From Bacteroidota bacterium (lineage in GTDB: Bacteria; Bacteroidota; Bacteroidia; Bacteroidales; JAAUTT01): a DNA stretch of 64,000 bases. Positions 47,705 to 48,904 of this stretch are shown here, one piece after another. Position 1 is the first letter of the stretch, and each line of letters starts with the position of its first letter. Below the pieces are notes generated by a model that worked only from the letters and a program-made list of their open reading frames with translations, had not been told where the DNA came from and made no database searches. A program made the position numbers and the translations under genes. The stretch spans positions 1-64,000 of the forward strand of contig JAUZOO010000009.1 of NCBI GenBank assembly GCA_030706405.1. The letters are read 5' to 3'.

Positions 47705-48904
47705 TTAAATATTTTTTATTATCCGGTAAACCACGTCCAACGTTTTGCTCAAATCCTGCGGAAGATGCGCCGATGAAATAAAGTTCGTTCCAAACTGAGA
47801 TTGCGGAAATAATACCCCTTGCTCAAAGGCTTTTCGGCTAAACCGTTCATAACGTTTGCGATCCGAACGATTGGCGGAGGCAAAATCTGTCACTTTATTC
47901 TCGTTAAAATAAAGTGTAAACATCGATTGAAATGCATTGATCTGGATTCCCCGGTTTTGGGTGAGTTCGTTCAGCCAGAAAATAAAATCGCGCGATTTGT
48001 GATTAAGGGGTTCGTAAAACTGCGGAAGTCGTAACCGCTGCAGAATAGCTGTTCCGGCAGCAATAGCCAACGGGTCGATGTGACGTTCTGTATTTTCTGC
48101 AGAAGACTTTACCGATAATACATCCCGTCGTCCGGCAAAGGCGCCGATGGAGTAGCCGCCTCCCAAGATATTTCCGAGAATGGTAACGTCAGGGAATACG
48201 TTGAAATATTCCTGGGCTCCGCCAGCTTTGGGTCGGAAACCAGTGACCTTCTCATCAAAGATAAGCAGTGATTTATGCTTGGCGGTGATGGTACGCAGAA
48301 ATTGAAGGAACCCTTCCTGAGGCAAAACCACCCCAACTCCAGTCAACACAGGCTCCACAATAACCGAAGCTATCTCATTTTTAAATAATTCGAAAGCTTC
48401 AAAAACAGCCACTTCGTCGTTAAATGGCAAATTCAGCGCGAGTTGTGCAAACTCGTCGGGTATTCCGAGGTGACTAAACTTGCCATGATTAGCTCCTTTA
48501 AACTTGATGATCCGTTTTCGGCCTGTAAATGCCAGAGCCTGACGGATTGCCCCAACCGCTGCTTTGTGACCTGAACTTGTTAAATGAACCTGCTCAGCGG
48601 ATGGCACCACTTGTTGGATTAGTTTTACCAATGTCGTTTCGCCCGTGGTTGCCAGTCCCTGATTTAGTCCATTGTTTATAACGGTTTCCAAAGCCGATGT
48701 TACTCGTTCGGGGGCATGCCCAAGGATATGCGCTTCGGTATGGCTGAAATCGATATATTCCCGAAGTTCCGTATCATATAAATTAGCTCCATGAGCCTTA
48801 CTGATTATTAGTCTGGGATTCAATTCTCCAAGGCCGGTGGGCTGATAATGGTTACTTTCAGCCTGAGCATTTCTTATTTTCTGATCAGATATTAGATTGG
48901 CCAT
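47705..48904 (-). CDS. HemL-like class-III aminotransferase homologue lacking the PLP lysine
   Basis: 399 residues, clearly related to HemL over its length: LLIFDEKVTGFRPKAGGAQEYFNVFPD aligns with [27 protein letters not shown] of the neighbouring hemL, and VIVEPVLTGVGVVLPQEGFLQ with LILEPVMGNAGVILPQDGFLQ. At the position of the PLP Schiff-base lysine (LGKIIGGG) it reads LGNILGGG: Asn245, codon AAT at 48170-48172. The YHG motif is NHG and the SGTEA loop is SGHKA; the GGVNSPVRA segment is missing. The reading frame is intact, so it is probably a conserved non-catalytic or altered protein. Last gene of the cysJ-cysI-DUF2061 operon (22-bp gap). Confidence 0.85.
   Translation of the reverse strand: MANLISDQKIRNAQAESNHYQPTGLGELNPRLIISKAHGANLYDTELREYIDFSHTEAHILGHAPERVTSALETVINNGLNQGLATTGETTLVKLIQQVVPSAEQVHLTSSGHKAAVGAIRQALAFTGRKRIIKFKGANHGKFSHLGIPDEFAQLALNLPFNDEVAVFEAFELFKNEIASVIVEPVLTGVGVVLPQEGFLQFLRTITAKHKSLLIFDEKVTGFRPKAGGAQEYFNVFPDVTILGNILGGGYSIGAFAGRRDVLSVKSSAENTERHIDPLAIAAGTAILQRLRLPQFYEPLNHKSRDFIFWLNELTQNRGIQINAFQSMFTLYFNENKVTDFASANRSDRKRYERFSRKAFEQGVLFPQSQFGTNFISSAHLPQDLSKTLDVVYRIIKNI

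Follow-up and report, generated by a model that had tools for sequence, protein, structure and literature searches.

A glutamate-1-semialdehyde aminomutase homolog lacking the PLP lysine in a sulfite reductase operon of Bacteroidales: probable remnant of a sirohaem gene cluster

What could a homolog of HemL (glutamate-1-semialdehyde aminomutase, GSAM), the enzyme that catalyses the ALA-forming step, be doing in a sulfite reductase operon once its Schiff-base lysine is gone? The question is raised by a gene on the minus strand (positions 47705 to 48904) of the window, by which we mean the whole stretch of 64,000 nucleotides that was analysed, from a contig of a Bacteroidota bacterium (GenBank assembly GCA_030706405.1, contig JAUZOO010000009.1); the product of this gene, a protein of 399 amino acids that appears to be a catalytically dead homolog of the aminomutase, is here denoted HemL*. 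The first-pass annotation of this DNA had described an intact frame of 399 codons that aligns with a neighbouring hemL, and so it proves to be, with zero internal stops and, in a comparison with E = 7e-84, 39% identity across 397 columns. It had also placed the gene 22 bp after a DUF2061 gene in the cysJI operon, and both the ORF coordinates and the profile scores agree: the same-strand order is cysJ, encoding the sulfite reductase flavoprotein (50880-52697, minus strand; TIGR01931, 755.5 bits, cut-off 668.15), cysI, encoding the sulfite reductase haemoprotein, a sirohaem enzyme (49160-50839, minus strand; TIGR02041, 834.5 bits, cut-off 756.55), the gene of the small DUF2061 membrane protein (48927-49154, minus strand) and HemL*, whose ATG lies 22 bp past the DUF2061 ORF. 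The neighbouring hemL (46356-47639), a canonical, lysine-bearing gene (TIGR00713, 627.4 bits, cut-off 527.3), lies on the opposite, plus strand, convergent with HemL*, and is a member of a different hem cluster. Between the 3' ends of the two genes is an imperfect hairpin (47625-47706; two 40-nt arms, 70% complementary) that possibly serves as a two-way terminator; it is absent from the output of a promoter and terminator scan, which yielded nothing exceeding chance.

How much of the enzyme has HemL* lost? In 31 of the 31 canonical HemL proteins compared, a set made up of the canonical one in the window and 30 from the top loci of the family and order searches, the Schiff-base lysine (presumably K273 in Synechococcus numbering) is in place; in HemL* residue 245 is Asn, encoded by AAT at 48170-48172 (minus strand, read from 48172 to 48170), in the context GNILGGG as against GKIIGGG in the window's own hemL. 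This replacement, and the changes of the YHG motif to NHG and of SGTEA to SGHKA, had been noticed at the outset, and the losses turn out to be wider than claimed: 15 catalytic positions were picked on the basis of GSAM biochemistry, and HemL* has replacements or deletions at 11 of them. In the numbering of the HemL of G003, a genome of the same genus, the replaced residues are lysine 266 (K266N), T117, Y143, N210 (N210G), V240, G297, T298 (T298E) and E397 (E397G), the deleted ones are R25, W60 and S156, and those kept are S115, G116, H144 and D238. Compared with the same protein, HemL* is missing nine residues after codon 27 (48824-48826, minus strand), the GGVNSPVR segment, which we take to hold the substrate arginine; 17 residues of the gating loop after codon 146 (48467-48469, minus strand); and four residues at codon 269 (48098-48100, minus strand), beyond which the YQAGTLSGNP motif, the inter-subunit phosphate site, is replaced. 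The gating loop, residues 153-181 of GSAM, controls access to the active site (PMC3747428). A sequencing error behind Asn245 can be ruled out because no single-base error would explain the change or deletion of 45 of the 98 family-invariant residues; in six canonical control HemLs, the same test finds 1 to 5 of 99-103 lost. Among the aligned invariant sites, 23 of 44 are replaced near the active-site segments, which we drew from the roles of the residues, as against 12 of 44 elsewhere (Fisher p = 0.029). The protein scores 317.1 bits with TIGR00713 (310.8 in the genome search), below the curated cut-off of 527.3, and 136 bits with PF00202, the class III aminotransferase domain, above the gathering cut-off of 30.5. 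Judging by its residues, HemL* should be unable to act as an ordinary PLP aminomutase and, at the level of sequence, it is a pseudoenzyme, that is, an enzyme homolog that has lost its catalytic residues.

Might HemL* nevertheless be an enzyme of another kind, with a new chemistry that dispenses with the PLP Schiff base and a reshaped pocket to match? An AlphaFold2 model built with 15 aligned HemLs has a pLDDT of 85 and a pTM of 0.85, with pLDDT below 50 only at residues 1-6, 22-30, 141-147 and 269-272, and a Foldseek search with this model ranks GSAM structures at the head of the list, with TM to the query of 0.85-0.92 among the top 10. As the aligned sequences are all canonical HemLs, the result says that the sequence of HemL* is compatible with the fold, the fold itself being a prediction. 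Asp217 and His140 (D238 and H144 in G003 numbering) are kept, and the pocket has acquired polar or charged residues, Asn245, Lys219 and His113, as a new activity could require. Yet the phosphate-site threonine, the substrate arginine and the gating loop are gone, the model is least certain at these places and there is no candidate substrate, so that we consider a new enzymatic activity highly unlikely.

Where, then, did HemL* come from? Its closest relative found is the cysJI-linked, lysine-bearing HemL of G003, with which it shares 50.6%, 53% or 55% identity, depending on the comparison; in a midpoint-rooted tree of 32 rows the two are sisters with 100/100 support, and by this placement HemL* is a descendant from within the HemL tree. 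A recent duplication of the neighbouring hemL is excluded by the tree, the identity to that protein (39%) being well below the 50.6-55% found with the HemL of G003. The branch to HemL* is 2.8 long, and flagged as long by the program, that to the HemL of G003 is 0. By three-taxon dN arithmetic, with the congener G001 as the third taxon, the branches are about 0.31 to HemL* and 0.05 to the HemL of G003, compared with 0.085 (window) and 0.077 (G003) for cysI and 0.16 and 0.12 for cysJ; with uneven branches for HemL and nearly even ones for its operon neighbours, the fast protein change therefore appears to be confined to the HemL* branch.

Among the genomes searched, HemL* is known from one. A single-protein scan of the genome contigs detected no other Asn-type HemL, and a scan with a two-sequence alignment found 75 loci, of which the sole one above 42% identity is a record of G003 (L043, 51% in the best segment). 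At E 1e-60, matches are listed in 46 of the 393 genomes of the order and, among the matches listed, identity above 42% is reached, besides the window, in G003 alone; at E 1e-75, a search of 395 genomes of the class had the window as its sole match. A DNA pattern for the Asn motif, which detects Asn forms with that exact motif only, hit 25 sites, spread over 23 of the 393 genomes, and only the site in the window is HemL-like by tblastn.

If the Asn form is solitary, is its position behind cysJI evidence that it now takes part in sulfite reduction, as the first-pass annotation had argued? The congeners speak against this. In each of G001, G002 and G003, an ordinary HemL gene lies within the cysJI cluster, beside other genes of the sirohaem pathway: G001 and G002 possess a complete one-strand cluster DUF2061-met8-short hemA-hemC-cobA/hemD-hemB-hemL-cysJ-cysI (some of these names were assigned by eye), and in G003 hemL is found behind cysJ-cysI and a short hemA. 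The window operon keeps the first (DUF2061) and the last (hemL) of the hem-side genes of the complete cluster, and its DUF2061 protein is 55-56% identical to the product of the first gene of the clusters in G001 and G002. Among the five loci read that encode HemL* homologs, all of them lysine-bearing, four are cysI-linked, the exception, on the 12000 of 13227 contig bases read, being G034. Given that HemL already resides in the cysJI cluster of the relatives, HemL* has inherited its link to cysI, and this link taken alone is no evidence of a role today. The proposal that HemL* senses or carries a tetrapyrrole precursor on behalf of CysI draws on the co-location with cysJI and on an ancestry in sirohaem synthesis, but the co-location is common to lysine-bearing HemLs and so is no argument for a new role, and no tetrapyrrole-binding feature was identified, although no dedicated search for one was made. 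We regard such a function as the most improbable of those considered here.

Two other genomes, G033, which is of the order, and G034, extend the comparison, with gene names assigned mostly by eye. In G033, a pair of hem loci, L132 (G033:C52) and L178 (G033:C7), includes the arrangement cysJ-cysI-met8-cobA/hemD-hemL, and among the listed ORFs of at least 180 amino acids in the main cluster, hemA-hemC-hemD-hemB-hemE, there is no hemL; the only HemL over the cut-off in this genome is encoded in the cysJI cluster. By gene content, G033 is the mirror case of the window, with the reverse choice of which hemL to keep. The G033 CobA-HemD protein begins with an N-terminal stretch that, by eye, resembles a degenerate HemC. 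In G034, of whose contig 12000 of 13227 bases were read, met8-short hemA-hemL lie apart from cysI, and hemC-cobA/hemD-hemB are located beside cysD-cysN-cysH.

The clusters show several further peculiarities. In G001, one ORF of 980 amino acids (L040:2498-5440) comprises short HemA, HemC, CobA and HemD; in G002, HemC-CobA-HemD occupy a single ORF without HemA, as they do, by eye, in G003 and G034. The short glutamyl-tRNA reductases of 302-309 amino acids (L041:9684-10592, L039:2026-2955 and L131:624-1541) match the hemA model over positions ~90-340 of 416 only, the C-terminal part being absent; they are the sole strong hemA matches in their genomes, that of G002 falling below the model cut-off. 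Lower-scoring HemL-like genes, at 165-279 bits, are present in the congeners as well, on G001:C79 (279 bits), G003:C316 (198 bits) and G002:C279. In G003, the sirohaem cluster occurs twice, in L039 (G003:C196) and L133 (G003:C151), with complementary losses: one copy keeps the short hemA and hemL along with fragments of met8, hemC (by eye) and hemB, and the other keeps met8, hemC-cobA-hemD and hemB, plus an 88-residue stretch of hemA.

What became of the rest of the cluster in the window? When positions 47640-52800 were searched with the met8, short hemA, hemC-cobA-hemD and hemB sequences from G002 and G003, the best E value was 0.068. The window has a second hem cluster, which consists, ahead of hemL, of met8-like, full-length hemA and hemB genes and, by eye, hemC and cobA-hemD (40192-46224, plus strand), and also contains an ORF of 173 amino acids of another kind (43002-43523); it is preceded by a cobalamin island that starts at about 23.2 kb (by eye). 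In all seven genomes examined, a single HemL exceeds the cut-off, and that of the window sits in this second cluster; the genome of G003 is a MAG of 480 contigs and 85% completeness, so that a second hemL may be missing from its assembly. Read by eye, the region 13749-47639 begins with a MetH-like methionine synthase gene and a metF-like gene and continues as a plus-strand island that opens with cobalt uptake, passes into cbi/cob genes and ends with hemA-hemL; between a cobC-like gene and met8, at 40092-40190 (minus-strand ORF), there are short in-frame repeats, with ELRITNY occurring several times. Clusters of the sirohaem kind are, to judge from the fragments in G003, decaying in the genus. 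HemL* thus appears to descend from an ordinary HemL in a cluster making ALA, and from it sirohaem, for the adjacent CysJI sulfite reductase. The comparison shows that this lineage has another hem cluster, complete with a HemL, and that met8, the short hemA, hemC, cobA/hemD and hemB of the old cluster have disappeared, leaving DUF2061 and hemL behind cysJI; the order of these events is our reconstruction. With its Schiff-base lysine gone, along with the gating loop and both the phosphate and the substrate sites, HemL* should no longer be capable of PLP aminomutase chemistry.

Does the cell still make use of the protein, or does HemL* survive as a relic, the final gene of a sirohaem cluster that has become redundant, with selection relaxed or absent and the frame open by chance? 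Much is compatible with the latter: HemL* is redundant beside the HemL of the second cluster, its neighbours from the old cluster are already lost, G003 holds met8, hemC/hemB and short hemA fragments from a like cluster, the HemL* branch is long (2.8 vs 0 for the sister) and the gene occurs in a single genome among those searched. Substitution rates fail to decide: dS is saturated for pairs with window genes, which leaves pairwise dN/dS without an estimate, and a branch model with a separate omega for HemL* (0.039 vs 0.030, with dS at its bound) brings no gain in fit (2dlnL = 0.81). We therefore simulated neutral drift with the G003 sequence as the ancestor, each run ending when the number of changed invariant sites equalled that observed. 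Calibrated on the 35 replaced among 88 aligned invariant sites, the runs accumulate on average 7.6 and 8.9 stops in two settings, with 0 of 1000 stop-free, and HemL* has 0 stops; under a conservative calibration, on the 12 of 44 invariant sites outside the active-site segments, the means are 4.8 and 6.0 stops, with 3 of 500 and 11 of 500 runs stop-free (14 of 1000). As the simulations counted stops and left out frameshifts, they are lenient towards the neutral case. A short and recent neutral phase would nonetheless be compatible: in runs at fixed identity (200 each), the stop-free fraction is 0, 0.02, 0.045 and 0.27 at 47, 25, 12 and 6% of residues changed. Indels in multiples of three were set aside as independent evidence of selection, as they follow from the open frame.

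The nature of the replacements speaks to the same alternative. At sites that G001, G002 and G003 have in common but that are not family-invariant, the replacements in HemL* have a mean BLOSUM score of +0.41, against -0.54 and -0.49 expected under the neutral runs, and 0 of 1000 runs reach the observed value. The residues identical to G003 are unevenly distributed over the protein, in clusters matched by 0 of 2000 permutations, with 12% identity at residues 251-275 and 76% at 301-325. Over the C-terminal part, residues 291-399, HemL* is 59% identical to the HemL of G003 vs 30-45% for four canonical HemLs, and over the large domain 54% vs 63-68% for canonical HemLs; the first figure counts for a maintained protein and the second against one. 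Replacements affect 35 of 88 family-invariant sites (40%), 44 of 107 sites conserved in the congeners only (41%) and 106 of 198 elsewhere (54%); that invariant and other conserved sites change at equal rates is as expected with the old constraints gone, and it counts in favour of a relic. On balance, neutral decay fits poorly and the simulations lean towards continued selection on HemL* as a protein, so that a relic is unlikely in our estimate, albeit the most serious of the alternatives. The pseudoenzyme reading of the first-pass annotation stands as regards the residues, which exclude an ordinary PLP aminomutase, and a protein that still looks to be read as such, and is not borne out as regards the argument from operon position.

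We lean, with modest confidence, towards HemL* being a remnant of the cysJI sirohaem operon, a dead pseudoenzyme that is kept as a non-catalytic, partner-binding protein. Its frame has stayed open, and its amino acid changes are, by the simulations, of the kind seen under protein-level selection. Co-expressed with CysJI, HemL* would bind a partner, the most plausible candidates being the enzymes of ALA supply, glutamyl-tRNA reductase (GluTR) and HemL, by analogy with LCB1, a lysine-less subunit that works with LCB2. A heterodimer of HemL and HemL* is weakened as a possibility by the elements lost, some of which we assume to lie between the subunits of the HemL dimer. The narrower idea that HemL*, from within the sulfite reductase operon, is dedicated to binding or inhibiting the functional HemL or GluTR, tying ALA flow to the expression of sulfite reductase, is for us a doubtful conjecture; if such binding were true, HemL* would be a pseudoenzyme that regulates entry into tetrapyrrole synthesis. 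More broadly, the locus suggests a route to a pseudoenzyme: once a pathway is present in a second copy, an enzyme gene dedicated to the first is superfluous, the pathway genes around it are lost and the protein stays without its chemistry.

How does HemL* compare with known systems? In the open-access literature searched, we found no description of a lysine-less HemL; PMC6522883 and PMC11528492 deal with other pseudoenzymes. With HemL/GSAM itself (TIGR00713; PDB 2gsa, 5hdm, 6w80), HemL* shares descent, the predicted overall fold and the class III aminotransferase domain, and differs from it in its score (317 bits vs the cut-off of 527) and in missing the PLP lysine, the phosphate-site threonine, the substrate arginine and part of the gating loop. 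The cysJI-linked HemLs of G001, G002 and G003 have the same neighbourhood as HemL*, that of G003 being its sister sequence, but they are canonical, each the only HemL above the cut-off in its genome (for G003, in an 85% complete MAG). The nearest parallel in kind is LCB1/SPTLC1, the lysine-less subunit of serine palmitoyltransferase (PMC3794620): like HemL*, it is a homolog of a PLP enzyme without the catalytic lysine, an analogy in the manner of working only, as LCB1 belongs to another PLP-enzyme family and has a known partner in LCB2, whereas the partner of HemL* is hypothetical.
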